Shown here: positions 358 through 30,617 of the stretch, piece by piece | Layout of the letters: each line of letters opens with the position of its first letter | Position numbering within the stretch: position 1 is the stretch's first letter | Assembly (NCBI RefSeq): GCF_019649055.1 | Contig: NW_026570452.1 | Span: forward strand, 1-64,000 | DNA: 64,000 nucleotides | DNA from: Paramacrobiotus metropolitanus | Lineage: Eukaryota; Tardigrada; Eutardigrada; Parachela; Macrobiotidae | Direction: 5' to 3' | Notes under the pieces: generated by a model | What the model saw: the letters and a program-made list of their open reading frames with translations, nothing else | The model's database searches: none | Told to the model about the DNA's origin: nothing | Program-made: the position numbers and the translations under genes

Positions 358-3300
358 ATGGCGCAAACCCCTGACTTATCCGCAGAATTGTTTGACCCCG
401 GCACCAGTGCTGAAACTAACTTTGCTGATAGTGCTCTTTCAATCATAATTATGCGCTTCTCGATCACAATTATTTTATACCTCCGGCTCCGATCGATGTG
501 CCAGTACAGAACCTAGAAGAACTTGATTCGGATTTGTATGATATTAAAGATTATTATGAGTTGGAAAAACGGGGCTAAATATTCACAAAAATTTTCAGTG
601 TCGTTTGAAACCTATAAATGTGTGATACACGGTCTGGATAATTTGTCATTTAAATACGCGATTAAAACCATAACTCTTTATTGAAAGACATTCTGGACAC
701 CGTGCTTTCGGCAATTCAGCCCACAATTTGGTTAGAATTCGCTTGTATCAAAACGCACTGCAATACCCAATTTGGATGCCACCTATCCAACGTGATCAGC
801 TGAGTGTTGAAAGATGGATGACAACGATCCGGAGAATCTTGAATTCAAATCAGGCGTTTTTATTGGATGAATCTTTTAATTGTCTGTGCAGCATACGGAT
901 ATTCCAACTGGGTCGCAGAAAAACGTTTCAAAGCTGTTACGGCAAATACTGGACAAGAAACGATGCATTACACAAATCCGCAACACGGACTGCTTGTGTA
1001 TGGCGCGAGCTATTGTGGTCGCTAAGGCGCATGCAGATGGCGATAAAATAATGTATACAAAGCTTTACCGAACGAAGAAGTTGCAGACCGAAAAGACCAA
1101 GGAGTTGCTGCAGGCTGCGGAATTGCCAGATAGAGAATTCAGTGTGGAGGATATTCCTCGATTTGAAATCGTTTACCAAATTATCAATTTATTGTAGTCT
1201 CGGTGGACCATGGAAACTCAATTGTGTACTGCGGCGCGTACTGTGAAAAAACGGATCATGCTGCTGCATCATGATCATCATTTTGACGTGCTAGCATCCC
1301 TGCCCGCGTATTTTGAACAACAGTATTATTGCTACCGCTGTATGAAGGGCTACAACAAAAGGCAGAACCACAGATGTGAGTTCAAGTGTCATCAGTGTTT
1401 ATCTGTAACCTGCCCTATGGACAAGCTTCAGAACATCCACTGTCCTGACTGTAATCGCGATTTCCATGGGCAAGAGTGCTTTTACACGCATAAGTCCGGA
1501 AGCAGTCCAATCTGCGCAAAAGTTCTTTATTTGTGAATTATGTAAGTCGTTTGTTTCCATGGTGAATCGTCGAATGAAGACCAATTACGACTTCACAAAA
1601 TTATCCGCTTTACGATGACGGCGACAAGGATAGCGACAATGAAAACGATGATATTGAACTGGATATAGATGACCAACAACATCGGTGTGGTGAAGTCTTT
1701 TGCCCAACGTGCTCATTGTTCTTCATGCCCGAAGATAATCATGTCTGCTACATGCAACCCATTGAGCTCACAGACAAAGAAAAGGCTAAACACCTGAACG
1801 ATAAGCTAGCGTACTTTGATCTTGAAACGTTTCAAGATGAGGCAGGTGATTTCAAAGTGAATTTAGCGGTCATAGCAACAAAAAAGACGAGAAATTTGTC
1901 CTTCCGGAAGATGGAAATATTAGCGGTGATATTTCAAGTGCGTTGGGGAATTCATCTTTAGCGAACGCTTTCGTGGGTACACCTTTATTGCAAACAACTT
2001 GAAGGTAAACAATGTCAAAACTTCATAAGCAATCATAAGCTTTTGTTGACAAAACTTACTTTTTAGGATTTGACGGGTATTTTCTGCTAAACTATCTAAT
2101 TAAGAACGGAATCATTCCACACCCATTGATCTTTAACGGGAGCAAGGTTGTGCAGATGGATATTTCAAAACTTAAAATAAAAATTCCGTGACTCTATGAA
2201 TTATGTGCCGTCATCGCTCAAAAATTTTGCCAAAGCATTCGGTTTGCAAGAAACCAAAGGAGACTTTCCTCACAAACTTAATCAGCCAGAAAATTGGAAC
2301 AAAATTCTTCCATGGCCAGATCGACACGATCACGGTTACCAGCTCATGAAAAGAAAGAGCGTAAACGTTTTATAAAGTGGTTCCGTAAAGAGCGACGCCG
2401 TCACAACAATCAATTTGACTTTAATGCTCACTTTATTGTACAGTATTTATTTAGCTCTGTTATAGATATTGCTCGCAAGATGTTCTTGTTCTCCAACAAG
2501 CATGTGAGAAGTTTCGAACGCTCTTCCAACAAGTGACGAATGGATTGTGTCCATTTGCTTCAGGCCTTACCACCCCTGGAATGTGTAATTATTTTGGAGA
2601 GCGCGGATGTTAAAGAAAACCAAATTGCGCTGATTGGTCCCCTGGACAAGGTAAAAAATCTTCTGCCAAAGGAGATCGTTGGCTCCGATGGATTGAAATG
2701 GACAACGATATACAACTCCAGCGCGAGGTTCGAATCGGCCCTTGGACAGTAGATGGTTTTGACCCAAGGAATAAAACCGTTTATGAGTTTCTAGGTAAAT
2801 TAGATGAACAACGAATTTTAGCAAATACAGAAAGTTTTGATATAATTGTGTTTGTTCTTTTATGGGTGTGTGTGGCACGGTTGCAGCCACTGCACGACAA
2901 AAAGTACACTGCATCCATTTCTTAATCGCCCCATGGAAGAAATCAACAAAGCAACTGACTCACGCCTTGACGCAATAAAAGCTATGGGTTACGCTCTTGT
3001 TTCAATCTGGGAGCACGAATACGATGCGCGCCTAGCAGCAGACATGGAATTCAAACAAGTCATCGAGTTAGCAAACATTGAAGAGCCTATGCACCTACGA
3101 GATGCATTCACCGGGGGCCGAACAAACGCTATCAAACTGTACCACAAATGTGCGCCAGGCGAAAAAATCTATTCCCTCGACGTTATTAGTGAGTACCCCT
3201 ACATCAATAAAAATCTGCCTTATCCAGTGGGAGCTCCTGTCATCATCACAAAGGACTTCCCGCCTGTGGAAAGCATATTCGGAGTGATGAAATGCCGTAT

Positions 3301-4624
3301 CATTCCACCACCGTCATTATTTCTCCCTGTACTGCCGTACAGAACCGACAAGCTTACATTTCCGTTATGTGCCAAATGCGTACAGGAGCGCGTGAACACA
3401 CCGTGCTGCCATGAAGATGATGACAGGGCTTTGGAAGGAACGTGGTGTACACCAGAAATTCACCGCGCGATAGAAGCTGGCTACCGCATTGAAAAGATTT
3501 ACTCTGTTTGGCATTATCCAGAGCAGATGCAATATTTATTCAGAGAATACATAGATCTATTTTTGAAGCCTAAAACAGAGGCATCAGGCTATCCACCGAA
3601 CTGTCGAACAGAGGAAGACAAAGACAGATATATTGAAGAGTTTCTTATTAAAGAAAATATTTTATTGGATAAAACAACATTGCGAAGAACGATGGGCTAA
3701 GAGCGTTGTCCAAACTTATGCTGAATAGTTTTTGGTAAAGAGTATTAATTCGATTGGCAACATGCAGTTTTAATTCTGAGTCTTTTACAGGGTAAGTTCG
3801 GCCAGCAGGAGGACACATCCAACACCGCATTTGTTGAAAAGAAAGAGATTTTCCATGATTATTTGTTTTCCAATAAATACGAAGTTGCCGGATTCGACTT
3901 GGTGACTGATGAAGTTATGGCTGTTCAATACCGTTCTAAAAAAGATTACATCCCAACAAGCAGAAAGACAAATGTTGTCATTGCGGCATTCACAACAGCA
4001 TATGCGCGGTTGCACTTGCTGAAGTTTATGGAAATGGTTGGAGACCGCTTGTTATATCATGATACTGGCAAGTACTGAATTTCAAGAAACTGTCTTTCGT
4101 ATTGTGATTCTATCTGTGCACTTTGCAGACAGTATCTTTATATTCACACTGATGACTTGCCTGATCCGCCAGTGGGGACATGTTTAGAGATTTGTCATCG
4201 TCCTTGGAGCCTAATGAGCACATCAACGAATTTGTTGCACTCGGTACATTCGGATCTACGTTAAGCTGTTTTACGGTGCAGCTTATAAGTATTTATACTT
4301 CATTCTTTTCAGGGCCTAAAGCTACGCGTACCGCACCAACACTGGCAGTGAAACGATAAGGTCAAGGGCTTTACCTTAACAAGGAAAGCCAGGAAACAGT
4401 TGAACCTCGAAAGCCTGAAGGAAATGCTATTAGAAAGCCTGGCACCGCAAGACCAGCCAAATGATGTAACCGTGAACTATCCGTTTAACATTACGCGGAA
4501 TAAGCGTAAATTGGAGGTTTCCGCAAAAGAAATAAATAAACGGTTTCGACTTACATATTCAAAGCGTCGAATTGTCGACACGGAATTTAACACTCGACCA
4601 TGGGGTGACGTTTCCGTTGATTAA
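358..4624 (+). pseudogene. Polinton-type protein-primed DNA polymerase B, decayed relic
   Basis: Fragments in all three + frames line up in order with the reverse-strand pPolB at 18237-22413, so this is a second, older Polinton polymerase. Recognisable parts are the N-terminal region (about 728-1200), the Cys-rich HHD-containing segment (1210-1530), an exonuclease-like region (1716-2540), the palm with motif A DVISEYP (near 3180) and the split motif C around 4070-4150, where DTD is assembled across an intron. A TATA-like stretch lies at 304-312 before the ATG at 358. Many stops and frameshifts make it non-functional. Two intron positions match the other copy: before FDGYF, and inside the DTD codon run (here with a GC donor). 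No capsid, integrase or terminal repeats were seen nearby, so it is a solitary remnant or the edge of an element extending upstream. Confidence 0.85.
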
Positions 4625-8515: not shown

Positions 8516-9022
8516 TCACAGCTTTGATTTTAATTCCGTTAACGCTGCATTCAAGCACTCCACAGACTTTGCGCCCAGAAAATTACATTTCCCCGAATGA
8601 AAAAGAACAGCAGTGCATGCGGATAAGCGAATAGGCAAACCAGTAAATAATTCAGGAGTATAGGATAACTGCAGGCGATTACTAATACTTTCCAGATTTA
8701 ACTTCTGACCAAAGTTAAAGGAACCAATTACATTAACAATACGATAATTTGTAACCATACAGCGATAACCATACTGACGTAATACACTAGTAAAATAATG
8801 CAAGAGAGCGCAGGACTCCCGTCTAGATGTGCCGCCGTTGACTGTAATCCGGCCATTAGCATATAGTTGACAGTGACCTTTAATGGGATGCAGTGTCCGG
8901 AGGAGTAAACCGGAAAATCTATGCGGTAGGTACTGGGCCATCGACAGTGTCTTCTCCAACTGAGCGAGGTCCAAGATGCAGTTTAGCTCCGCAGTCGCCA
9001 CAACATTGGTCACCTTGACAGT
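8516..9022 (-). CDS. TATA-binding-protein-like protein (TBP fold)
   Basis: About 169 residues form two TBP-like half repeats. The first has NVVATAELNCILDL, YLPHRFSGLLLR and YANGRITVNGG; the second has IVNVIGSFNFGQKLNLE, YTPELFTGLPIRL and FHSGKCNFLGAKS. These match in order the TBP landmarks N(I/V)V.T..L.C.LDL, Y.P.RF.A...R, SGK...TGAKS and the second-repeat YEPELFPGL..R. TBP recognises core promoters for RNA polymerases. The start is unresolved: no ATG precedes the domain in frame and a stop lies just upstream. The exon probably begins after TTAACAG at 9022 and is spliced to an upstream exon, perhaps the gene at 9121-9709. With the visible donor the phase points to a different frame, so an indel, another donor or dual coding must be involved. 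Identification of the fold is firm; the gene model is not. Confidence 0.8.
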   Translation of the reverse strand, partial: TVKVTNVVATAELNCILDLAQLEKTLSMAQYLPHRFSGLLLRTLHPIKGHCQLYANGRITVNGGTSRRESCALLHYFTSVLRQYGYRCMVTNYRIVNVIGSFNFGQKLNLESISNRLQLSYTPELFTGLPIRLSACTAVLFHSGKCNFLGAKSVECLNAALTELKSKL

Positions 9023-9709
9023 CTGTTAATACGAGTACCATTGCTACTACGTATATGCAAAATCAACTGGTACAAATGACTAACGATTCGTAAGGATTCT
9101 TACGGTACAAATACTCTTACCGATCCAGTGGACGGTTCCGCATTCGCATTCATCTTGGGTCAGCTCTTTCTTGGTATCCGGTCGCTCTCTCATGCAGGTC
9201 GTGCAGGTCTTCTGGTTCAGGTACCCCTCCAACCATCTGGCGTACGCAACAGGCTTATTCCACTTGTCTGGACGTTCACTGGACAGCTGGCAAAACGATG
9301 GACACTTCAAATCGTCCAGGTTGAGAACGGTCGCTGGCTTCAGAATGCTGGCTAGGACGGCACACTTGTCTGCACCCTTTGCATAAAACTGCACATCGTA
9401 CTGACGCTCGCCCTTACAATGAGGAAGACCACAATCGTGTTCGTCACCGAAATCGTCAAACATAACAGAGTACCAGGTATCGATCGTATTACGCAGGCTG
9501 CGGATATTTTCTGACAATTGCATGCCAAATATAACACCCTTGTTCACATTACGTAATCCATATTCTTCAACAATGTATTTCTTAGATGGATGGAAAACTG
9601 TCGCGAACATACTCTTGCCTTTCTCAGGACAAATAATAGCAAAATGCTTAAACACTTTAACATTTTGAATCTCAACATATTTAGCATCAACAACACAGGG
9701 AACAGCCAT
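8919..9709 (-). CDS. unknown protein with Cys-rich C-terminus, Polinton cargo
   Basis: Exon 9709-9121 starts at ATG 9709 and ends before GTAAGAG. Spliced to the acceptor TTAACAG it continues at 9022-8919 to TAG, giving about 230 residues. The C-terminus has CTTCMRE and CECG in exon 1 and CQGDQCCGDCG in exon 2, a pattern that looks like a zinc-binding cluster completed across the splice. The N-terminal 150 residues match nothing I recognise. Exon 2 overlaps the start of the TBP-like frame in another phase. Alternatively exon 1 is the N-terminal half of the TBP-like protein and one base is wrong. A GTGGCTAAC box array lies upstream in the divergent promoter shared with the PC4-like gene. Confidence 0.55.
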
Positions 9710-9806
9710 TTTGACAGCACTCTAATAAGACAAGTGAACATCAAATCCAAATGTGACAACTGATTTTGCTGTAGCTCGTATTTGAAGTGTATTGGCAGTG
9801 CTCTTG

Positions 9807-9925
9807 TGGCTAACCTACACAATGGTGTAGCTAGCCGACGCAGTGGCTAACATACGCAATGGTGTAGCTAACCGACGCAGTGGCTAACGTACACACTGCA
9901 GTGGCTAACTTACACAGTGCTAGCC
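9807..9925. promoter_or_regulatory. GTGGCTAAC box array in divergent promoter
   Basis: Six or more copies of a GTRGCTAACNTACRCA-like unit start near 9807, 9826, 9843, 9862, 9880 and 9901, spaced 16-21 bp. They sit between the divergent starts at 9709 (-) and 10077 (+). The same box recurs at 17560-17655, 22502-22558, 25325-25339 and 30603-30617, always near gene starts within this element. A regulatory role is inferred from position and repetition. Confidence 0.6.
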
Positions 9926-9961
9926 TAACGATTTGGTGGATGAGCTTTAACCACTTATCAG

Positions 9962-9967
9962 TATAAA
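9962..9967 (+). promoter_or_regulatory. candidate TATA box of the PC4-like gene
   Basis: TATAAA lies about 110 bp before the ATG at 10077 and just downstream of the box array. Assigned by consensus and position only. Confidence 0.4.
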
Positions 9968-10076
9968 ATCAGTCTACAGCCAGAGCCCTGAAAAACAGTT
10001 TTCAGTTTTGTTTTCCTTTTCTGATCTAACTTTGAAAATCGCTGGTGACCTTTTGTTTTAACAACATTTTTCAATA

Positions 10077-11239
10077 ATGGAATTTCTTGCTGATATCCCG
10101 TCGACCTCGACCCCGGCCCGAAAGAATCCTAAGCGCAAGATCACCATGAAGATCTCCAAAGACCGGACGCAGCTGGAACCTATCAAGCGCCAAAAGAAAT
10201 CCGACATCGCCAGCAGCAGCAGCAACAGCGCATCCGTTCTTACCGGCAAGCATGCCCGCTACGCCTTTACTGAACAGGGACTGCCCGTCTACAAAATCGG
10301 GTTCGACAAGTTTGCCCTGGTTCGCTGGTTGGAGGGAGGGACGAAGGTGGTCCTAGCCGAATTCAAAGAGCAGCCGGATGGTACCTTTAAACCTGTGGAT
10401 GCCAACAAGTACATCGCCATGACCATCAACAACTTTTTGCGCCTCTGTGGATTAATGCTGACTGGTAAAGCCGACTTGGTCTCGTCGTGCCCGCCATTGT
10501 TCGATAATGGAAAGCTGTCTCCTCACTACTGCCTGGACGACAACCTGTACTTCCAGTGGAGCCGCTACAACAACATGGACCTGGCCACTGTACGCCGTTT
10601 CAACCTGTCGCCTAACAAAGATTTGTACCCAACCAAGGTCGGTATTTCTTTCGGTCGGAAGGCCTACGAAGGACTCAAGGAACTGGTGGTGGACTTTACG
10701 CTGCTGAAGGAGATCCGGGACACCAACGAAGCTCACGATGTCGCCGCGGATCCCAAGCCTGGTCTCGCTTCCGTTTCGTTGAAACAGGTTAGTTGAATAC
10801 GTACAATTATTTTAATTTTACTTGTTACAATTTACACTGTCATTTTTAATTGTCGGTTTTTAACAATGTGTAATTTTTGCGATGCGTGTATTTTACAACA
10901 TGTAATTTTTGAGCTGTCAGTTTTTGCACTTTGTTATTTTTAAACCGTCAGGTTTTCACACTGGTCCGATTTAATTATTAGGAATTGGCTGAAATTATGT
11001 TCCGCAATATTCGTGAGCACCGTGAAAATGCGACTGGTCGTACGCCGATGCGCGGAATCGCTACGGATGAAGAATGGAACACTGCCGAAAAGGACGTTCT
11101 GGAAAAGAAGCAGATTCATGGTGTGTTGTTGTTGCTTAATCAGCTTGATGTGGGTCAGTGTATTGATTTAGATGTTGATGGCTACTTGGCACAGTTCCGT
11201 AAGGAAGTGCGTGCCCAGTTGGATAAAATGATGATGTAA
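10077..11239 (+). CDS. protein with two PC4-like transcription coactivator domains
   Basis: Two exons, 10077-10787 (donor GTTAGT) and 10982-11239 (acceptor TTATTAG), join in phase to 322 residues. The N-terminus is basic (KNPKRKITMK) and Ser-rich. Residues about 65-125 and 145-205 each resemble the PC4/Sub1 fold, with the hallmark strand pattern and lysine-proline turn: F-x-LVRW...LAEFKEQPDGTFKPV, then NLYFQWSRYN...NLSPNKDLYPTKVGISFG. PC4 binds single-stranded and melted promoter DNA and stimulates transcription or replication. The last 85 residues are helical and charged and match nothing known to me. It is the only + strand gene in this part of the element and is divergent from the 9709 gene. 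The intron has degenerate GTCAGTTTTT-type repeats. No frameshift is visible. Confidence 0.65.
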
Positions 11240-11277
11240 CGCGTAACGCTGCATGCCGTAATTACTGGTTATTTATT

Positions 11278-11793
11278 TCATATTAATGCACGAACAATCT
11301 GTTTTTCTAGAAATTTGCTATTGCATATTTCTGTATTAAGCTGGAAATAATGATTAACAGTTCGGCAAACCATCTTGTCATTGCTCGCCTTATTATCAGT
11401 AAACATTTTAACAATTGAGCCAAATGGCTGACCACTGCACCTCTGTAAAATAAAAAACATACAGTACTGTCCACACACAGTAGAAAATTCAGACTGCAAC
11501 ACTTCGCCTTGGGTCACTAGTCTAACACTACCAGAAAATCTTTGCCTGAGTGCGTTGCTGTAGTACGCCGGTAATTTCCCATTCGAGTCGAAAAATTCAA
11601 TGACACTGGCTTGGTCCTGGTATATGGCTACCCAATGCTCTCCCGGCTGCTTTGCTGGGTCCGTATTGACGATACATGATGCAGGATAAGGCTGTAGATC
11701 CATTGGTACTTCATCGGCAGCAAACACACCACGGAATGTCGAGCTAGTAATAGGGTTAGCCCGCATGGCCGCCGATAATTGTTCCGAGTTCAT
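11278..11793 (-). CDS. adenain-like cysteine protease (Polinton PRO)
   Basis: 171 residues, intact, ATG at 11793. The His of GEHWVAIY, the acidic strand EFFDSNG and the Cys of STVCGQYCMFF match the active-site blocks of the adenovirus-type maturation protease found in Polintons. Its expected role is capsid protein processing during virion assembly. It overlaps the end of the capsid gene by a few bases and closes the minus-strand morphogenesis cluster (integrase to protease). Confidence 0.88.
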   Translation of the reverse strand: MNSEQLSAAMRANPITSSTFRGVFAADEVPMDLQPYPASCIVNTDPAKQPGEHWVAIYQDQASVIEFFDSNGKLPAYYSNALRQRFSGSVRLVTQGEVLQSEFSTVCGQYCMFFILQRCSGQPFGSIVKMFTDNKASNDKMVCRTVNHYFQLNTEICNSKFLEKQIVRALI

Positions 11794-13096
11794 GTTGAGA
11801 AGTCAGCAATCAATTGACGATGCTGGTTAAACTCAATAATACTATCAAACACCATCATGCACACCATCATCAGCGATTTAGCATGTGACTTTGCAAAGGT
11901 CACCGACACACTTAAATTTCCCTGTTTGATTAAAGTCAACGGTCCACGCCCCGTATGACCAGGTGTCAAATCAAAACCGAAAATAGCGTATCCTTCGTTA
12001 TAGCCATTACGATTGACCGACCAGCATCCGGTGGGATGGTTTTTTGCGCCCAGTGCATCCAGCAACCCATCGTAACATTCCAATGACTGATTTTTCGCAA
12101 AATCAGCATTGTATGGTTTGGTCGGATAACTTTGTCCATCCACTTCCACACTTATCTGCCGTACGTCGAAATGGTGAAAATTAAATGGATTTTTCTGGTA
12201 ATTGCCGTGAAAATCTTCGCTGTCCAGGAAACCAATGAATACCACCTTAGGAATTTGACCAATCTGCAGATTGGTCACTACAGTACTTTGGTGTTCTTCG
12301 GAATGTCGGCCACCCGCATGACAATCCGTTCAATGTGGTACTTAACCGTGCGATTCAGTAACTGGCCGGCTACAGCGGTCATAAAGTCCGGAGCCGGAAT
12401 ATAACGGCGTACTGATAACCGAGCATTCCGAATGAATGGTTTGTATGTTTTGGTATCTTTATCGGCATCCCAAACACGTAGGCAAAATTCTGGCCGGTTC
12501 ATAACTAATCGTATTTGGACAGGAATGCCCGTACAGAGCGGTTTGCTTTGGTCAAATAAATCGGCAAATATTTTTCCGGATAATTGTACATATTCTCCCT
12601 TCCCAAAAAGGTCATGCCGCCATACTTCACCAGTGTTATCGGTCTGATTGTTCATTTTTCCCGGCAAATCCAGCGCATAGCCCGCTGAGCTTAATTGCGA
12701 AAATTGCGCTTCCGGAGAATGAAATAACAATGATTCAAAATAAGCGCGATACGGATAAAATGTTGCCGCGTCCGAGATGAGGCGATTAGCCACCGTTACA
12801 TGAACCGATTGGAATATTGAATGCAGAAAATTGTTCACCGGGGCCACCCCCTCAGCGGCAGTGATTATTTCAAAATTATTCTGGTTATTTTTCTTGACCT
12901 TTATTGCCACTTCCAACTCCAGTACCATGTCACCTAAACTCAACAGTCCGGCCGTACTAGGAGGAATGTAGAAGTTAATATCGCCAGCCGTCCCATCCTC
13001 GGTAAATATCGTTGTAGGATTAAGTTTCTCGTGTTCAGTGCGCCATCGGTCGGTCAATGTTGCAGGCAAAGCAAAGAGCTGATTTTCCAACTGCAT
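11790..13096 (-). pseudogene. Polinton major capsid protein (double jelly roll), frameshifted
   Basis: Two overlapping frames, 13096-12278 and about 12300-11790, follow one another with a single shift near 12285, together about 435 residues. Position between the small capsid protein and the protease, a length near the family minimum and beta-rich segments (INFYIPPSTAGLLSLGDMVLELE; later NHPTGCWSVNRNGYNEGYAIFGFDL) support a major capsid protein. I place the start at ATG 13096; an ATG cluster near 13131 is in another frame, so the true start may also be affected by an indel. It would build the icosahedral shell. The lesion, if real, disables it; a sequencing indel or programmed shift is not excluded. 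Confidence 0.75.
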
Positions 13097-13133
13097 TGCT
13101 GGTCTGAATTGGGCATCATCATCATAGCCATGA

Positions 13134-13532
13134 TTACAGAAAATCAGGAATATTTGTCGGGGGAATTCTACGGGCACGCTTTGGTTGTTTTACGGGCTTT
13201 ACGAGTACGCTTTTCCGCACACCTTCGCCTTGCTGCATCCGTCTACTAATAGCTTCGCTGGCTTGTGCAGCAACGTCTTTAATAGCTCCGGTGGCTGCTT
13301 CTTGCAAGTGCGGTGTTGCTGCTTCGAGTGCTGCCTTAGCATGCGGTGCCGCTCTTCGTATAATAGGTTTAGCAAATGAAGAAATCTTAGCAATAATATT
13401 CTTTAATACTTGCGCAAAACCAGAACCATTCTGCAAAGTACCACGATAGCGCAGAAGAGGGCTACCACCAGTCTGCGCCACGAAAACGTCTTCATACCGC
13501 CGTGGGTCAGGAACATACGGTACTAAAGGCAT
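13134..13532 (-). CDS. small basic virion protein (pVI/pX-like candidate)
   Basis: 132 residues, intact. There is an N-terminal PRRYEDVF segment, then a Gly-Ser linker, an amphipathic alanine-rich helix (about residues 45-90) and a basic tail with KPVKQPKRARR. In Polintons a small membrane-active or core protein usually sits next to the capsid gene, which is the main reason for this call. It is 1 base from the next gene upstream, so the cluster is tightly packed. No sequence match is claimed. Confidence 0.5.
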   Translation of the reverse strand: MPLVPYVPDPRRYEDVFVAQTGGSPLLRYRGTLQNGSGFAQVLKNIIAKISSFAKPIIRRAAPHAKAALEAATPHLQEAATGAIKDVAAQASEAISRRMQQGEGVRKSVLVKPVKQPKRARRIPPTNIPDFL

Positions 13533-13533
13533 T

Positions 13534-14529
13534 TTAAAACAGCTTCTGCGGTCGGAAATGCAATTTCACCAACGATTTGCCGTTCTCGAACTTGGCGTTT
13601 TCTCCCAGGTCATCAGCCAATGTCAAGTGCACTGTCTCAAAATGCTGAGCAATAACAGGGACATAATGGGCCTTGTCGAACCTTGCTTCCACGAGAGGAT
13701 CCGTACCGCCTCTAATAGGTACATTACGCAAAAACTGCGCTGCAGTATCGCCAATTAAACTGTAGTCAGCCACATCACAATAAACAAATAAATTCTGATT
13801 TTGCAAATGGGCATTAGCCGCTTGATCAGCAATAAATTCCCGAGTTTCGGAATAATTTTCATCCTTGCATTTTTCTATAAACGTTTCGACAACGCCATCA
13901 ACAGCCAAAAAATCTGCCTTTTGTGGGGTGAGATCCCAAAAGTCTGTTGTTAGGTGTGATTTTCGAAATCCCAGTATTTTCTGCAATGCCATGGATTCCG
14001 GGGGAAAATACACGGTTGTTCGTGGTGTTCCAACAGTAATTTTGACCCGTTGATTATTATGGCTATCGAGTTGCATTTGCACATACTTATTTTCTGGCAA
14101 AATGCTCAAGTTCTTGAGAAGGCTTCCGTTGACGCGGAAATAAGGGCTCTTCATGCTCATCACTGGTGCGTTCTTATTGATCACCTCCAGTATTGCCGCC
14201 ACATTTTTATAATTACCAGCGGGCACTACTATGTCCTCAGTATACGAACTCCGCCCTAGTATTTCTACTAACCGATCCGTATTGGCCTCTTTCTCTTTAT
14301 CCCAGACTCTAGTATACTCCAGGCCATATACAGTATCCAGAATAATATGCTGGTCATGACTCAGAGTATATAAAGAATTATTGCACTGAAATTCCACCAA
14401 AGCCATTTCCCAGCGCCCTTTGAGTGATATGGGATGCTTAAGGCGTGTTGTCCAGTCCGATGCAGTATTTTCGGTGAAACTGTTGACATCGCTGGGCAGC
14501 GTTAAGTAGAATGGCGATCCTTCAAACAT
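13534..14529 (-). CDS. minor capsid (penton-like) protein
   Basis: 331 residues, intact, ATG at 14529. The N-terminal block FYLTLPSDVNSF...NTASDWTTRL...LKGRWEMALVEF is characteristic of Polinton minor capsid proteins, which form the fivefold vertices through a single jelly roll. It overlaps the 3' end of the integrase gene by 28 bases and is followed by the small virion protein and major capsid gene, the usual morphogenetic order. Confidence 0.82.
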   Translation of the reverse strand: MFEGSPFYLTLPSDVNSFTENTASDWTTRLKHPISLKGRWEMALVEFQCNNSLYTLSHDQHIILDTVYGLEYTRVWDKEKEANTDRLVEILGRSSYTEDIVVPAGNYKNVAAILEVINKNAPVMSMKSPYFRVNGSLLKNLSILPENKYVQMQLDSHNNQRVKITVGTPRTTVYFPPESMALQKILGFRKSHLTTDFWDLTPQKADFLAVDGVVETFIEKCKDENYSETREFIADQAANAHLQNQNLFVYCDVADYSLIGDTAAQFLRNVPIRGGTDPLVEARFDKAHYVPVIAQHFETVHLTLADDLGENAKFENGKSLVKLHFRPQKLF

Positions 14530-15556
14530 TTTTCACTGATCCACGAGTCGTGTTCTGGCCCGTATCCCAACCACCGCACTAGTGCTTTACCTTTTCGCCG
14601 TTTGATTACAAAATCAATGGTATGCTCTTTATTCTCCACATTCCGCACGCGTGATAATTCTTTCTCGTAAAATTGCCCTTTAATAATTACGCCGTGCTCA
14701 TCTTTTTGCCGATATACAGGAATCTTGTGCCGTACGACTTTGGCAATGGTGAATATTTCTTCTTTGAAATTATAATTATATCCTTTGTCTAATTTTCCCT
14801 TGTTAACAGCTAGACGAACCGTATCGTCCACTTTAAACTTGGGTTCTTCAGCGACAGTGTCTTTGTACAGCTTGTTAAATACTTCCAATGAATTTTCTTC
14901 GGTGACATCAACAGGGCGCATGCCGTGAGCGCGGTGGACAGAACGGTTGTACGAATGCACCAGGTCATTGAGCTTATCGGTATAGCGTGTGGACACTCGG
15001 TGTCTGAATAGCCGGACCATGCGTGATTTTATAGTGCGTATTACTCTCTCCACCATGGCACATTTTATATCTTCATTCTCGGATGTAAAAAATTCCACTC
15101 TTTTGGATTTCAGAAATGACTGAACAATATCATTCACAAATTCGCGCCCTTTATCAGTCTGTACACGCATCGGTTCACCCAAGTCATCAAACACTTTTTG
15201 CAAAGCATTTCTTGTTTCCGTAGCATTTTTGCTTTTCATTTGAACCACACATAATTTTTTAGAAAAGCAGTCTATGGCAAACAACAGATATTTTATACCA
15301 TCATTCTCTTTGTAATATTTAGAAAAATCAGCCAAGTCAATTTGATACTGCATTTGAAGGTCCGTGACCACAATTTGATTGCGTTTAAAACGTTTCGAAC
15401 GGTCCTTTGTTACCGTGTACTCATCCAGTTCCTCCAACAGCTCCTTGGCCTTCCCACGGTTCAGTTTGTGTTGCTTTGTCGCTTGATAAAACCTTTCTAC
15501 GCCGCCAAAGCTTCCGGGATTTTTTGCGTCCAGATATTTTTCAGGAGTTGATTCAT
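14502..15556 (-). CDS. Polinton integrase (RVE family with chromodomain), 5' frameshift
   Basis: The main frame covers all but the first residues. The retroviral integrase core has catalytic D in IDLADFSKYY, D in QTDKGREF and E in VERVIRTIK, with YNRSVHRAHGMRP after the core. The C-terminus is a chromodomain (VIKRRKGKALVRWLGYGPEHDSWI). It cuts and joins the terminal repeats and gives the 6-bp duplication seen here. The best ATG (15556) is in another frame; the shift falls in a run of five A at 15537-15541 (minus strand), so one base is missing there or in the assembly. Otherwise the gene looks intact. Confidence 0.92.
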
Positions 15557-15640
15557 TGCAACACGTTGAGACACAATTTATCCGGAAAACTCGGCAAAGG
15601 CGTAGAACTGACGGCAAAAAGAGGACATGCTACGGTAAGG

Positions 15641-16081
15641 TTATCCACTTGGCTCGTGGATTGCCTGCGCCTTTTGCCCTCCTTTTGTTTTGCGGGCACG
15701 CAGTCGACCGGATGGTGGTGTATGAAAAATTTCCTGGTGGTCAACTTCTGCTGGTGTAGTTGGCGGACTCAACTGACGCCTGGGTACTTTGCGTTTGGGC
15801 TCTTTAGCCGGCTTGGGTGGTTTTGGCGCGACGTACTTGGGAATTTGGATGGGGTTTTCTTCGGGAATCGCACGTGGCTTCAGTGCAAGAAAGCGCTCTA
15901 ACGTTGAAGATAGCTGGTTGGCCTTCTCGTACTCGCTTATATCATTACGGTTAACGATCTTGGCAACTAAATTGTCTAGAGATATCACTTCTACCGCCTC
16001 CGGAGGTTGCTTGTTCAACTGAATTTTATTGGCCAGGCGGTCGTCCATTATTCGCTTAGGTACAATTAAAAATTCATCCAT
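15641..16081 (-). CDS. conserved small Polinton protein (PX/PW-like), function unknown
   Basis: 146 residues, intact. The N-terminal half has MDEFLIVPKRIMDDRLANKI and LVAKIVNRNDISEYEKANQLSS, a type of helical protein common near Polinton integrases. The C-terminal half is proline- and lysine-rich (PKPPKPAKEPKRK). It overlaps the next gene by 8 bases. I assign no activity. Confidence 0.6.
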   Translation of the reverse strand: MDEFLIVPKRIMDDRLANKIQLNKQPPEAVEVISLDNLVAKIVNRNDISEYEKANQLSSTLERFLALKPRAIPEENPIQIPKYVAPKPPKPAKEPKRKVPRRQLSPPTTPAEVDHQEIFHTPPSGRLRARKTKGGQKAQAIHEPSG

Positions 16082-16400
16082 TGCCGATTAAACTGCCTAG
16101 CACACCGGCAATGACGGGTAAAAGTGCTCCAATAAATCCGCCTTGCTGCAGGATCTTTCGCTTTTTCTTGGTCGGGTATCGGCGTAGTGCCAAGAGCCTC
16201 AGGGACTTTCGGTGTCGTTTACAGGTATCCAGATGAGCCGGCGGCAAGGTAATGGTATTTTTAATAATATTGACTGCAATCTCCTCTATCCCTTTCAGCT
16301 GGTTCCGATTAACATACTCTAGTAAAACCTTCCGCTGTTTCGGCCTCAGACTCCGTAAAGTAATAATGTAGGGCGCTAAGGCCTTCACTCTTTCCGACAT
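16074..16400 (-). CDS. small basic protein with glycine-rich hydrophobic tail, virion core candidate
   Basis: 108 residues, intact. It is basic through the middle (HRKSLRLLALRRYPTKKKRK) and ends in a hydrophobic GGFIGALLPVIAGVLGSLIGNG helix that could insert in membrane or act like a processed pVI-type peptide. The overlap with both neighbours (ATPase and PX-like gene) marks a compact operon-like cluster. Function is inferred from context only. Confidence 0.55.
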   Translation of the reverse strand: MSERVKALAPYIITLRSLRPKQRKVLLEYVNRNQLKGIEEIAVNIIKNTITLPPAHLDTCKRHRKSLRLLALRRYPTKKKRKILQQGGFIGALLPVIAGVLGSLIGNG

Positions 16401-17075
16401 GGCTTTAGGCAGGGAGTACTGTTGTTCTTACTTAAATAAATCCGCATATACTGATCCGGCATCACATGAGATCGCACCCTTAAATAGTCGGGGCAGTTAC
16501 TTCTCAAGTCCAGAATGATTGGCTGGTACGCCTCTGAAGTGACCTTTCGATAAGCGTCCACCAGGTGCGGTAGACCCATCTGCCGAGCTAGTGTACTAAT
16601 CTGATTTACGTCACGCACGTTCTTAAACAGTACTAGATACTGACAATTTAGCATAATGTCTCTCATCGCTTTTCCCTGTTTATAGAGATTTTGAAGGATT
16701 AAAATCACGGATACATTTTTATGATGTATGCCTTGCGTAAATAACTTTGTACATCGCATATCCTTATTGATCACGTGTGACAAGTCGTCAATAATAAGCA
16801 GCGTGTGTTGATTAGTATTAAAGAAATCATCATTGGCTAGTACTTCTTCTATGCCCTTAACAAATTCCACTTTCGGCTCTGCCTCTAGTAGCAGATCAAA
16901 TCCTTTCTGATATTCACCATAACAATACACAATGCGATCAGGCGGTCGGTCTATCATCTGCTCTCGGTTTTTAATTAAATTAAACACAAATTCACTTTTT
17001 CCCGACATGGTCGGTCCGCACACAACAGCCAAAGCATGCCTTAAAACGTGGATCACTATCAAGCACTGAATACAT
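16385..17075 (-). CDS. FtsK/HerA-type genome packaging ATPase, 5' frameshift
   Basis: The main frame has Walker A GPTMSGKSEF, Walker B LLIIDDL, a sensor-like LILQNLY and the conserved C-terminal ARQMGLPHL region, as in Polinton/adintovirus packaging ATPases. The natural N-terminus starts at ATG 17075 in another frame and switches near 17039, next to a GG pair, so one extra base is present in the gene or assembly. Predicted role: moving element DNA into capsids. Confidence 0.88.
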
Positions 17076-17153
17076 GTTTGCGCATAAAAAACAACAGTTA
17101 GACGTACAAAAGCGCTTTCAAACGCACACAATTGGTCGAAAACACTTAAATGT

Positions 17154-17485
17154 CTACGTCCACCAATCCAAAGGCTGGGCTCCTCCCCATGTCAGGTCGT
17201 ACACACGGTCCACCCACGCCCGCCCGCGCATGGCCCTCACGTATCCGCAGAATGGATTGAGGTACACGTGCTTTTCCACGCATCCATCCCATCCTCCCAG
17301 TCGTCCGACAGAGTGCGCTTGCAGTGGAAACACGTTGCAAAGCATGTGGCCGAATATATGAACCCTGCCTCTGCCAACGAGCGCGACGCGTTAAGCCTGC
17401 AAGGATGACACCAGTCACTATACGTTGCCAATCGCGCTTCGTACGTGGCGTACTCGGAACAGCCAAAACTTTCCATGAAACTCAT
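17154..17485 (-). pseudogene. BIR-domain (inhibitor of apoptosis) protein, frameshifted
   Basis: One BIR domain reads across two frames: RLATYSDW, then LAEAGFIYSATCFATCFHC and DDWEDGMDAW in the first frame, then KHVYLNPFCGY in the second. The zinc ligands CxxC, H and C are all present but the last two lie after the shift in a run of four A at 17272-17275 (minus strand). IAPs bind caspases or adaptors and block cell death in insects and large insect viruses. It is single-BIR with no RING seen, about 110 residues. It is divergent from the membrane protein gene across a 16-bp box array. Confidence 0.75.
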
Positions 17486-17559
17486 TTTCGTTTATTATTT
17501 AAAAGGAAAAGAAATCAAGGAAAATTACGGCTTTTATTTCGTTTGTTTCCGGTGGTATA

Positions 17560-17655
17560 GTGGTTAAGCGACACGGTGGCTAACCGACGCGGTAGCTAAC
17601 CGACACAGTGGCTGAGCGACACGGTGGCTAACCTACGCAGAGTCTTACCAACACA
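17560..17655 (+). promoter_or_regulatory. 16-bp tandem GTGGCTAAC box array, divergent promoter
   Basis: Five exact-length 16-bp units start at 17560, 17576, 17592, 17608 and 17624, with a decayed sixth to 17655. The consensus is GTGGCTAACCGACACG. It lies between the BIR gene start (17485, -) and the membrane protein start (17722, +). The constant 16-bp period and lack of unique spacers argue for a protein-binding array rather than CRISPR. Confidence 0.65.
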
Positions 17656-17721
17656 GCAGATGAGTATTTCAAGTTCAGTTTGTAATTATTTAAGTGAACA
17701 GTGAACGCCTAAGAGAGCAAA

Positions 17722-18142
17722 ATGGCGAATTTACAGGGCATGATTCCCAGGCTGGACCTGGTCGAGCGCATCGACAACCGCCTCGGGAAAGTTTTGTATT
17801 GGTTTATTGTGGTTAATGTTGATTGTTATTCTAATAACGTTCGTCTGCCTTGAAAATATTATAAAAGTTATCGCCCACCGCCCTCGGCTGTTGGACCTCT
17901 GCGTGAACGACACAGCATGCAATGCCACCGCTATCTACAACATTACGGGCTGACCTTTCGTGAACTCCTCCTACGACTTGTCGCGGCAGTCATTTCTGCA
18001 ACAAAAGCGGACTAAAGATCAACACAAGACTCCTGAATCCAGTCCTTACATTGGCAGTTCTCCTTCCAACCAGTGGGAGATGGGGCAGTCGGAATATGTA
18101 TTTAATGCTGTTGATGTTCTGACTTTAATAGTTACTAATTGA
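17722..18142 (+). pseudogene. small membrane glycoprotein, frameshift and in-frame TGA
   Basis: From ATG 17722 the frame encodes a short cytoplasmic segment (MANLQGMIPRLDLVERIDNRL), then a hydrophobic segment VLYWFIVV that continues in the next frame as LMLIVILITFVC after a one-base shift near 17811. This is followed by N-glycosylation sequons NDT, NAT and NIT. TGA at 17951-17953 ends it, but the same frame continues with another sequon (NSS) to 18142, so the TGA may be a nonsense change or a readthrough site. The topology suggests a single-pass protein with an outside C-terminus. Function unknown. Confidence 0.45.
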
Positions 18143-18236
18143 TTTTGTAATGTTGATTTGCTGCGGTTTTGTCGACCTACTGTAATTACTGTTGCAAAAT
18201 GAATTAAAACTTCAAACGTCAGATTTTATTGTTTAT

Positions 18237-21200
18237 TCACTTTGGTACATAGCCAAACGGTAAAGTGTTCCAATTCTCAACAATTCGGCGCTTGTCATAG
18301 GTCATACGAAACTTCTTAGACATGTCGCGCTGCCGCAAAGTTAAACTGGGCTTATGGCGCTGTATAGAATCAGGATAATTAACATTCACTTCTTCTGAAG
18401 TGTCCAACATCGACAACATGCGCTCAAAATTGATCAGTTCACTAGTAGCTCCATTGAGAGTAAAACCTTTAAGCTTAACGATGCTGACGTCATCATTAGT
18501 CCTGTACGCGTATGTTTTCGGACCCAGGCTAACGAATTCGGTAATGTACTGTCCGGGTTTCAGTTCGTCCGTAAGGTCACCCAAAAACTTGCCCGTTTCC
18601 GGCTTGGGCTGGTCGGGCCGGTCCACGAAGATAATAGAGTCTGCAATACAACAGTGCAATTGCCGATCGTGTATAACGCAGCACGTCTTTGACTGACCTG
18701 TATCGAAGTATAACAGTCGGTCCTGGACCTGTTCCATGAATTGCAGTAAATGCAGCCGAGCCCAACAAGTTGTAAACCTGCGGTCAGTCAGAAACAGGGA
18801 AAGGTCACGGTCAAAACAAGAAAGGTCATGGCCAGAAACGTGCGAGGTCACTAGTACTTACGCAGCAAGTACCACATTCGTGCTAGGATTATCTTCAATG
18901 AAGCCTTCCTCCTTGGTGTACATGACCTGCAGGACTTCTTCTCCAAAAAGGTCCCACGAGTGGACATGGTACTGGCCGGACAGCAGCAGTTCGTAAAAAC
19001 GGGCCGGGTCACTAACGTACTCCGTGGTCAACTTGTTGTTCTGCATACCCAAGCGGCCCCAAAAGCTACAACAAAACATAAATTCTGCTCATGAAGTGGG
19101 AATCCTGTAACCCACTTACCTATTCAGCATCAGTTTGGCCAAGGAGCGCAAACCGGGATTTTCCTGCACCTTCTCACGGTCCAACTGTATGCCTTCTTTG
19201 GCTTGGTATTCCTGGATGTATTGGGTCTTTTGGTCTTCGGTCGTGACGTCCGTCGGCCATCCACTGGCCTCGGTCTTGATCTTTAGGAATTTGTTGATGT
19301 ATCCTTCAAAGAGGTGGTCTTCGTGCTGGTCAAAGTGCCATACCTCATAGATTTCCGCGATGACGTAACCACGGTCCAGCGCTGCCGCGATTTCCGGTGT
19401 ACACCATGTGCCAGTCAGCGCGCGCTCGTGCGGCTCGTGCTCACAAGGGGCGTTAGATGCGCTGGTCGGCACAGGTCCGACACAGTGGAAAGGTCAACTT
19501 GTCCTTGCTTCGGTACGGAAGGATGGGCAAGTACAGGTCGTCTGGCGGCAGCACTTTGCAAGACATAAGGCCAAAGTAGTGGCGCGGATCCGTGAAATCC
19601 TTAGTGATGATGGTCGGATGTCCGGTGGGATACCGTTTGGTCTTGTTGACGAACGGATATTCGCTGCAGACATCGTAGTAACAGATCCGTTCATCTTCGA
19701 CCACCTTGTGATGGAGCTTGACCGCGTTGGTGCGTCCACCGTAGAAGGCATCCCGCGGATTGATTCCGGCTTGAATGTTGACGGTGCGAACATAATCGTT
19801 GAATTCGGGGTCAGTGACGCGCATCCTGTCATACTCATGTTCCCATACGACAATTACCTTGTATCCCATATCTTTAAAATACTGGTCGCGGTCCATGGTT
19901 TCCCGGTAAATGTCCGACATCTTTAGGCCGCGGTATGGATGCACGGTATTGCCGGCAAAGCACTGAGGACAGCCGTGGAACCAACAGCCGTGAAATTCGT
20001 AAACCGTATTCGTCTGGACACAAAATCCGTCTGCAAAGTACGAGCCGATCTTGTGCTCTGAGCCGGTGACCTTTGACTGAATTTCGCACTGACCTTCGGC
20101 TTCCATCGACTGTAGCCAACGAAGGGCCTTGGCGGACTGTGGGCGGTTGCGTCCGAAGCCCTGGTTGGGAATCAGGCCGATCTGCTCCGGCTTCAGCGGG
20201 AAGGTCCGCCAGTACACGCTGCAGACTCCGGCAATGGTGGCGGCCGAGACAAAAGGATTCAGGCCATCGCTAATGTCCGTGAAGAGCTGGGCAAACTGCT
20301 GGCAACACTGACGCAATACCGTGACGTCATTCTGACAATACTGAACGAACTCTTTCCGAAAATCAAAAACTCCGCCCTTGGCCGCAAACTCCGCATCGTA
20401 CCACCTGTCAAAATCCATCCGGTCCTTCAGCTTCATACTGCCATAGCCGTACTCGTCCTTGGAAGGAAAAGGCACAACGCGGTTCCAGTTCTCGGGCCGA
20501 TTGAATCGGTGGGGAAAGGTTCCCTTGCTGGCATTCTCCAATCCAAAGGTCGCCGGCCATTTGGACAAACTTTGCGGATTGTAGTTGTAGCTGTCACGGA
20601 AGTGGATGTTGTACGGTGCCGGGACGTCCAACATCAAAATCTTGCCGCCATTCATGATGACCTTTGGGACGATGCCATTACGCAGCAACCAGTTGAGGAT
20701 AAAGTATCCGTCAAACCCCTATGAAAAGCAGTCCGATATACCAGAGTGAATCTAAATGAACTGTCTGGACAGAATACCTTAAAATTGTGGGCAATGACGT
20801 AATAACCATGGTGGTTTTCCTGGAAAAGGAATGCGCAAAGGTCATCGGTAACGTCCTGGCCAATATCGCTAACAGAGTCCGGGAAAATCCATTCAACCCC
20901 CTCGTCATTCTGCACCACCTATTATAACACAGCATTTTGTAGTTACACTATGAAATATATGCAGCGTCAAAACATACCGCCAAGTTGGGCACAAGGTCGC
21001 CTGACGATGAAACATAAGTTTCAAAATCAAAATACAAAAACTTGGAGGCGCTGCATTTCGTCTTCCGGTCCAACGTAAACGGCTTGGGACGCATGTAGCA
21101 GCGATGATCAGCCGGGAGGTCAAACACACCGCATGTCTTGCATTTGGTCTCACCGCAACGATGGGGATTGTCCGGCTTTCGCCGGGCATTGGAGTAAATA

Positions 21201-22413
21201 CATCGGCACTGGGCACACAGCCTCACGGTCGCACAGATAGCTTTACGTTGTCGATGCCGACCCTTTGCACTACCGACCTTGTGGTAATTAAAACAATCTT
21301 GCCCAGGAAAAGTACGATTACAGTCCCCACAAACAATCGGATTAACTGCATCTCGCGGGCAATCAACACGAAGGCATAAAGAACAATAAGCACTACAACG
21401 GTGATGGATGCGATTATCGTACCCCTTCATACAGTCAAAACACCAGTAACTCTGCTTAAAAAACGCCGGCAACGATTTCAAAAGATCGAAATGACCATCA
21501 TGATGCAGCAGAATTATGGTCTTCTTATGCTTATGACCTTTATGGACTATCGCGTTCGCATGATCAACACTAGCCACAATAATGCGATATTTCGTAAGAA
21601 CTCTTTCGAACGCGGGATATCACTCAGACTGTACGGCCGCTCTGGTAAACCGGCTTCCTGGATAAGCTGCTTGGCTAACTTTGTAATCTTTCGCTTACCA
21701 CGTCGCAGGCTTCGGAATAGCTTCTGGTCGTTGTCGGCTAAGGCTTTACCAATCATCAAGGCGCGCGCCATACAAAGGTCATCGTTGCCGTCCACAACCA
21801 CCACGGACTTCATCTTCTTCAACCGCCGCATTAGCAATGCAGGTACATCCTTGAGACAGCGACCCACAGGAATTTCCGTATGCTGGACAAAAATTTGGAA
21901 GGAATCATCAATGATGAACTCTTCATGACTATTCAAAACGCGCTGAATATCAGCCATCCAACGTTTTACACTGAGTTCAGACCGTAGCGTCAAGGACGTG
22001 TACAAAGGGCGATTAAAATGACGAGAATCTACACGTAGGCGTACCGCGTCATGGTCGCTTACACCAGTTAAAACAACAGACAAAATGTACTCAAGAATAC
22101 ACCAAATAGTTTGCGGAATATCACTGTGTGGAATATCCTTTAACTCGGAAACTTGAATATCAAAAGTGTTAAGATGAACACGAAACTTTCGAGAATATTT
22201 ACGACCGATGCACCGAACGTCAACACTATCAGCTATGCTCGCACTACCACCGCACTGGGGCACGGAATCTTCATACTCCCAGTCATCTGCTGCTGCTAAT
22301 AACGCGGCATCACGCAAAGTATCATCATCTAACTGCATATTACCATCATCATCATCCCAATCACCATCCGCTATCAAGTCAGCCATATCAATATCTGATA
22401 ATGTGTAATCCAT
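18237..22413 (-). CDS. Polinton protein-primed DNA polymerase B (pPolB), spliced, two frameshifts
   Basis: Exons: 22413-20978, 20918-20778, 20718-19120, 19065-18862, 18777-18698, 18640-18237, all with GT..AG introns of about 55-85 bp. The acidic N-terminus (DGDWDDDDGN) precedes a Cys/His-rich region, an exonuclease-like segment (FDGYFILNW, YCQNDVTVLR), motif A DVCSEYPFVNK and motif C DTDSIIF, whose codons are split by the fourth intron from the 3' end region. The C-terminal KKFRMTYDKRR is conserved in the relic at 358-4624. Single-base shifts occur near 21586 and near 19480. The enzyme replicates the element by protein priming. The box array at 22502-22558 lies just upstream. Confidence 0.9.
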
Positions 22414-22501
22414 TTTTAAAATTTATTTGCAACACTTTCAGAACAAAGAACACGCTAACTGAATTTTATTCAGAACAAGTGAGCAAAAACTGAAATACTG
22501 A

Positions 22502-22558
22502 TAGGAGCTAACGTACGCACTGCTGTTGCTAACCTACGCAGTGGCTAGGCTACACAAT
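22502..22558 (+). promoter_or_regulatory. GTGGCTAAC boxes upstream of pPolB
   Basis: GCTAACGTACGCACTG, GCTAACCTACGCAGTG and GGCTAGGCTACACA follow one another about 90-145 bp before the pPolB start (22413, -). They share the consensus of the arrays at 9807 and 17560. They overlap the 3' end of the neighbouring minus-strand gene. Confidence 0.5.
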
Positions 22559-23886: not shown

Positions 23887-24032
23887 TTTAGAGATTAGTA
23901 CAAACAAATAAATCGTGTAAGTCAAATATTACAAGTTTGTAATAGCAGATAACTACAAATAATTTACATGAGATCGAGTTCCAGTGGTGTAAGTCAGCAA
24001 CTGATTTTGCAGGTTGTAATAAATCGTATACG

Positions 24033-24070
24033 CTAGCAACTGGCTGGGTAGACTAGCAACTAGATGGGTA
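24033..24070. repeat. 20-bp-period direct repeat upstream of the unknown cargo gene
   Basis: CTAGCAACTGGCTGGGTA at 24033-24050 and CTAGCAACTAGATGGGTA at 24053-24070 are near copies, about 150 bp before the ATG at 23886. They are possibly related to the GTGGCTAAC boxes but less similar. Confidence 0.4.
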
Positions 24071-25324: not shown

Positions 25325-25339
25325 GTGTCGCTTAGCCAC
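25325..25339 (-). promoter_or_regulatory. single GTGGCTAAG box upstream of the LRR gene
   Basis: The reverse strand reads GTGGCTAAGCGACAC, nearly identical to the first unit of the array at 17560. It lies about 140 bp before the LRR gene ATG at 25188 and points toward it. Confidence 0.5.
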
Positions 25340-30602: not shown

Positions 30603-30617
30603 GGGTACGTTAGCCAC
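30603..30617 (-). promoter_or_regulatory. single GTGGCTAAC box upstream of the zinc-finger gene
   Basis: The reverse strand reads GTGGCTAACGTACCC about 120 bp before the zinc-finger ATG, pointing toward it and matching the consensus of the other boxes. Confidence 0.5.

Follow-up and report, generated by a model that had tools for sequence, protein, structure and literature searches.

The analysed window is a stretch of 64,000 nucleotides from one contig (C232) of the 169.8-Mb assembly of Paramacrobiotus metropolitanus, and the region from 8.5 to 22.5 kb of this window is a Polinton. Its DNA polymerase B gene (PolB; 18237..22413, minus strand) is of the organellar/viral type, with the piece 19453-20688 scoring 103.2 bits against PF03175 (cut-off 25.8). 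On the same strand lie an rve integrase (14502..15617; PF00665, 47.8 bits, cut-off 32.6), whose end gave a chromodomain match below the cut-off, an adenovirus-type cysteine protease, the PRO (C5) of Polintons (11278..11793; PF00770, 24.9 bits, cut-off 21.3), and a packaging-ATPase-like protein (16385..17131; Pox_A32, 19.6 bits, below the cut-off of 22.8). A Pfam search of the frames 11790-12278, 12278-13177, and 13534-14529 gave no match; we take this to be the capsid region, and the frame at 12278..13177 (minus strand), which has 132 matches in the genome, is presumably the MCP. The window copy (8516-22555) is partly decayed, since its PolB open frame is split into several pieces in different frames; the reading frames of TBP, PC4 exon 1, the protease, and the capsid-like protein remain open. 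No inverted repeats bounding this copy were found, including any of 20 or more pairing its two ends, and the element size of about 16 to 17 kb is the distance between the terminal repeats of a related copy on contig C19. A BIR (inhibitor of apoptosis) domain at 17237-17485 (minus strand; 28.9 bits, cut-off 22.9), whose reading seems to run on in another frame, heads the ATPase/capsid block. Left of the element, a second PolB gene lies in pieces in the opposite orientation (880-3700, plus strand; PF03175, 72 bits for 2846-3700), and it is probably a relic of another element.

The gene at 8516..9022 (minus strand), in which the initial annotation had recognized a TBP fold, encodes a two-lobe TBP of 168 amino acids and has no ATG at its start in the window lineage. 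PF00352 matched it in two stretches with 107.8 bits against a cut-off of 22.9, and the predicted structure forms the TBP saddle, so the assignment holds. At the four positions that we take to intercalate into DNA, the window protein carries F, Y, F, and F, and the pattern F-[Y/F]-F-F was found in 44 of 44 non-host TBP sequences, with Y at the second position in 40 and F in 4. This set comprised the window copy, 15 other tardigrade copies, 27 database relatives, and the more distant TBP P0032; the 27 were drawn from 30 database relatives (P0032 apart) after the partial or odd sequences P0029-P0031 had been excluded. As for the residues that we assume to be the stirrup glutamates, the second is kept in 40 of the 44 sequences and the first in 14. 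The TBPs encoded by large double-stranded DNA viruses and mirusviruses share this fold and the conserved DNA-kinking aromatics, as far as the accessible text of the reports on them goes (PMC11410667, PMC7221094, PMC10132985).

Next to the TBP, the initial annotation had placed a two-domain PC4-like gene at 10077-11239. The two domains and the fold stood up in our analysis, and an intron was added; the profile match fell slightly short, with PF02229 giving 24.3 bits, just below the curated cut-off of 25, which is passed at 10 places genome-wide, the best of them being the host gene. Exon 1 (10077..10787, plus strand) encodes two PC4/PUR-fold domains at about residues 62-128 and 150-216 of the model, and a predicted GT..AG intron (10788..10981) separates it from exon 2 (10982..11239), the same junction being present in the annotated proteins P0033-P0035 of other copies. 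The predicted structure has the β4-α single-stranded DNA (ssDNA)-binding fold of PC4. In sequence, domain 2 matches PC4 weakly and no match was found for domain 1, and the HMM-HMM comparison of domain 1 with domain 2 was not significant (probability 0.4, E 0.14). PC4/Sub1 and PUR-alpha are ssDNA-binding cofactors of transcription and replication. The element protein shares their domain fold, and its tandem layout resembles repeats I-II of PUR-alpha, but it differs from them in carrying two domains in one chain plus a C-terminal extension.

Both frames appear to be under purifying selection. Pairwise dN/dS values (NG86, pairs with dS of 0.05 to 1) had a median of 0.126 and a maximum of 0.20 for TBP (44 pairs, 36 sequences) and a median of 0.123 and a maximum of 0.37 for the PC4-like frame (26 pairs, 38 sequences), with none reaching 1 in either set. 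Because only open frames entered the comparison, certain loci were retrieved as overlapping pieces of a single copy, and individual sequences recur in several pairs, these values are an indication rather than an exact estimate.

The pair is not peculiar to the window. The PF00352 search of the genome scored 150 of 493 candidate matches, so that the counts are lower bounds; after merging, there were at least 122 TBP places (one, on C4, being the host gene), 120 PC4 places (135 matches), and 126 capsid places (the 132 matches above). A PC4 match lies within 3 kb of the TBP at 57 of the 122 listed TBP places, and in all 57 it is on the opposite strand, where about 0.6 such places would be expected by chance. 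The side-by-side arrangement described for the window had thus been understated. The pairing is not universal: another 18 of the 122 listed places have PC4 on the same strand as the TBP and up to 12 kb away, 47 show no PC4 match at this distance or closer, and some layouts separate the two genes by about 5 to 8 kb. A capsid match lies within 10 kb of the TBP at 88 of the 122 listed places; PC4 or capsid is found within 15 kb at 98 and neither at 24 (the host gene among them). Viewed from PC4, at least 57 of the 120 places have a TBP within 3 kb and 93 have a capsid within 10 kb, while 18 have neither a listed TBP within 15 kb nor a capsid within 10 kb. Viewed from the capsid, at least 88 of the 126 places have a TBP within 15 kb, 92 have PC4 within 10 kb, and at least 67 have both. 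The TBP is on the capsid strand in 61 of the 88 listed places and against it in 27, which indicates that the gene belongs to several Polinton layouts as a standing part rather than to a single copy.

These counts also bear on whether host genes were simply captured by chance, or inserted into one copy. Apart from the fold, which is the cellular one, we found nothing that speaks for such an origin, and we consider it very improbable. The TBP recurs at 122 or more places, and at least 88 of these have a capsid match no farther than 10 kb away. The main tardigrade element TBPs share 42 to 55% identity with the window copy (its sister lineage 77%, two far ones 28 to 30%), against 25 to 32% with the host TBP. 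Likewise, the relatives in other database assemblies are 42 to 57% identical to the window copy and 23 to 32% to the host TBP, and they come mostly from the sources ena, jgi, and lgn, on contigs that reach 27.6 kb and would thus be long enough for whole elements; the contigs holding P0016, P0020, and P0025 measure 27.6, 20.0, and 19.4 kb, respectively. Among the database relatives of both proteins, no TBP-PC4 linkage outside the P. metropolitanus genome was seen. P0032 and P0040, which alone lie on contigs of equal length (969), were considered as a linked pair and rejected, because P0032 is the more distant TBP and comes from another source. A scan of viral contigs with the TBP and PC4 alignments and with capsid, PolB, and integrase gave no confirmed locus, the last three scans using the window protein alone as the query and so reaching close relatives only.

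The close spacing of the two genes could have another cause, in which the TBP would serve transcription, the PC4/PUR-like protein would act mainly as the ssDNA-binding protein of protein-primed replication, and the two would be neighbors only through a shared gene block. The PC4-like protein may indeed be such a replication protein rather than a coactivator, and we regard this division of labor as a serious possibility, albeit one that we would not bet on: the pairing at 57 of 122 listed places speaks against it, and each of PUR-alpha, PC4, and Sub1 also acts as a transcription factor.

Between the TBP and PC4 genes lies a middle gene of 209 amino acids (9080..9709, minus strand) with no Pfam match, directly before the TBP and on the same strand. 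Its frame overlaps the TBP in another frame in many copies (e.g., L069, L071, and L079), and in two copies the two genes form one open frame (L046:1-945, minus strand; L076:1062-2009, plus strand). An acceptor-like taacag was found just upstream of the ATG-less window TBP, and sister copies were also compared. From these features we infer that the TBP of the window lineage may be made from a spliced transcript beginning at the middle gene.

The initial annotation had likened the element to large cytoplasmic DNA viruses, and this likeness found no support. A whole-genome search with PF00382 (E up to 1e-3) gave six TFIIB-family matches at only three places (C45, C100, and C28), and these contigs hold no listed TBP, PC4, or capsid match, although a very diverged TFIIB could escape such a search. 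With no element TFIIB in sight, host TFIIB is the more likely partner of the element TBP, and the GT..AG intron in the PC4 gene of the window lineage argues for nuclear transcription with the host machinery. In the accessible text of one study, a TFIIB-like gene accompanies almost all viral TBP-like sequences, poxviruses having none; the TFIIB-contacting glutamates vary in viral TBPs, and its authors hence doubt that host TFIIB is the partner there (PMC7221094). The tardigrade element differs from that viral TBP-TFIIB system in that no TFIIB-like gene was found for it with PF00382. Judged on these comparisons, a nuclear, host Pol II-dependent, herpesvirus-like model appears better than a cytoplasmic one.

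A TATAAAA at 9962..9968 (plus strand), 115 bases before the PC4 start codon, lies in the promoter region from which the middle gene and PC4 diverge. Among 27 copies with a recognized PC4 start, 22 were nonredundant, and 12 of these have TATAWAD between -150 and -30 of PC4, compared with 3 on the reverse strand and a mean of 0.88 (maximum of 4) in 300 shuffles, the baseline being shuffled sequence and not host promoters; the motif is missing from the other 10. On the middle-gene/TBP side, no TATA enrichment was seen (3 of 15, against 1.11 by shuffles with a maximum of 5). The TATA boxes before PC4 would serve host TBP as well.

A protein of this kind might also work as a decoy or antagonist, sequestering host TFIIB/TFIIA or sitting on host TATA boxes and so shutting host genes down. 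Its low identity to the host TBP (25 to 32% in the tardigrade copies) and the failure to find a TFIIB-family gene near the listed element genes would suit such a role. Against this, all 44 sequences retain the DNA-kinking residues, and a TATA box frequently precedes the element's own PC4 gene (12 of 22); we think the decoy role improbable.

Besides the TATA box, the element promoters carry arrays of short sites. Five GTGGCTAACNTACAC-type sites with up to 3 mismatches lie at 9806..9915 in the divergent middle-gene/PC4 promoter, a second array of five sites of this family lies at 17560..17638 before the ATPase, integrase, and capsid block, and a third, of three sites, lies at 22504..22555 before PolB. 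The motif, derived from the cluster at 9806-9915, matches the window as a whole 21 times, where 3.95 matches would be expected and the highest count in 100 shuffles was 11; the three clusters account for 13 of the matches, and 8 lie elsewhere. Right of the element, more GTGGCTAACNTACAC-like sites with 1 to 3 mismatches were noticed at 23987-24040, 25325-25339, and 30603-30617 (minus strand), perhaps from other element remains.

Comparable arrays of repeated sites, palindromic by eye in several lineages, occupy the middle-gene/PC4 intergenic regions of other copies. Repeated 9-mers exceeded the maximum of 200 block shuffles in 10 of 15 such regions and showed no excess in 5; the 15 were obtained from 23 copies tried and include kin (L017, L018, and L020 are one lineage, and L007 and L046 are close). 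The type of site changes with the lineage: GTGGCTAACNTACAC in the window, a GGGATCACCGAGTTCAGTGATCCC type in L081 on C19 (eight sites with no more than 2 mismatches), GGATAACC..GGTTATCC in L063, and GGTAATC..GATTACC in L007 and L046. When up to 2 mismatches were allowed, the 24-mer of L081 gave 59 match rows genome-wide, including one place that was counted for each strand, compared with 0 for the control. Sorted into position classes that were chosen once the positions were seen, 34 rows fall between the middle gene and PC4, 21 in outer arrays (14 about 5.2 to 5.4 kb upstream of a capsid match and 7 upstream of PolB), and 4 elsewhere, namely one on C13 and three on C351, a contig without a listed PolB match.

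We had considered that the outer arrays mark only the PolB and capsid promoters. This was dropped for the C19 lineage, where both outer arrays turned out to be part of terminal inverted repeats that are 845 bp or longer and 98.8% identical (L096, C19:385150-386150; L097, C19:400950-401900). The outer stretches on C55 likewise match each other in inverted orientation (98.7% over 236 and 92% over 240), and a TATAWA match is absent from three of the four outer stretches read. Being subterminal, the outer arrays of the C19 lineage may have a role in replication or integration in addition to one in transcription. Subterminal repeats and E2/NFI-type sites are precedents for terminal or origin-type site arrays, and all arrays might be read in this way, as sites for an integrase or an origin-binding protein and not as promoter operators. 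We treat this as a credible alternative to which we give less weight than to promoter operators, since the position of both C19 outer arrays within the terminal repeats speaks for it and the internal arrays speak against it. The richest C19 array, with 8 of the contig's 14 24-mer matches, sits inside the element, between the divergent middle gene and PC4, and has a TATA box toward PC4. The window array at 17560, before the ATPase/capsid block, is also internal; neither of the two is at the margin of the gene block. A search for inverted repeats of at least 20 found none that pairs the ends of the window element.

According to the above-described analysis, we favor, with a probability of roughly 0.55, the reading that this tardigrade Polinton lineage encodes its own promoter-recognition set, in which the TBP and the PC4-like protein would act on element promoters together with private operator arrays and host Pol II. 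The proposal that the element may direct its own transcription is thus supported in part, as to gene identities, pairing, signs of selection, TATA boxes before PC4, and site arrays, and the function itself is deduced from these sequence features. The conserved fold and intercalating residues suggest that the element TBP would bind and kink TATA-like core promoters of the element, where host TFIIB and host Pol II would join it in the nucleus. The tandem PC4/PUR-like protein would bind opened or single-stranded DNA and so aid initiation, a replication role being possible as well, and the lineage-private arrays beside the promoters may be operators or enhancers bound by a putative element-encoded protein. 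The gain would be joint activation of the element genes, independent of host genes and of the other Polinton lineages in the same genome. More tentatively, and with the odds somewhat against it, the system may be fully orthogonal: the element TBP and PC4/PUR-like protein would steer host Pol II, each lineage having an operator code with a coevolving protein, so that lineages could coexist without cross-activation.

The element resembles Polintons/Mavericks and adintoviruses in its PolB, rve integrase, C5 protease, and ATPase-like and capsid-like genes, in its many integrated copies in an animal genome, and in the terminal inverted repeats of the related C19 copy. It is unlike them in that a TBP gene and a tandem PC4/PUR-like gene belong to its regular complement and that private arrays lie beside its promoters. 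The terms TATA, TBP, and PC4 are absent from the main text of four papers on Polintons and Polinton-like viruses (PMC10120064, PMC8097293, PMC4642659, PMC4028283), and neither a Polinton nor an adintovirus carrying a TBP or PC4 gene appeared among the papers listed in searches of the openly accessible literature, in agreement with the initial annotation, which knew of no described Polinton with this pair. The terms Polinton and TATA-binding protein occur together in one paper (PMC7786948). TBPs are encoded by large double-stranded DNA viruses (PMC11410667, PMC7221094) and, in the accessible text of one report, by 59% of mirusvirus genomes (PMC10132985); these genomes are far larger than that of the tardigrade Polinton. 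The closest functional likeness is the late preinitiation complex of beta- and gammaherpesviruses, which have TBP mimics, so that a DNA virus's own TBP-like protein and host Pol II meet on its own promoters; ORF24 of KSHV recruits host Pol II (PMC7498053). In the accessible text of that report, the TBP-like domain of ORF24 is embedded in a longer chain whose N-terminal domain binds Pol II, and no fewer than six viral proteins work together in all. In contrast to ORF24, the TBP frame of the tardigrade element is a bare two-lobe core beside a PC4/PUR-like gene.

An animal Polinton of about 16 to 17 kb thus keeps a TBP at more than 100 places, with signs of selection. If the orthogonal promoter system were true, Polintons would be the smallest DNA viruses or transposons with their own TBP known to us. 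The model makes a testable claim on Polinton gene control, a subject on which we know of little in print, and the lineage-private arrays would provide a natural series of promoter/factor pairs. Meanwhile, the finding bears on the proposed Polinton-like origin of larger viruses, in that core-promoter factors may already have existed among the small elements.
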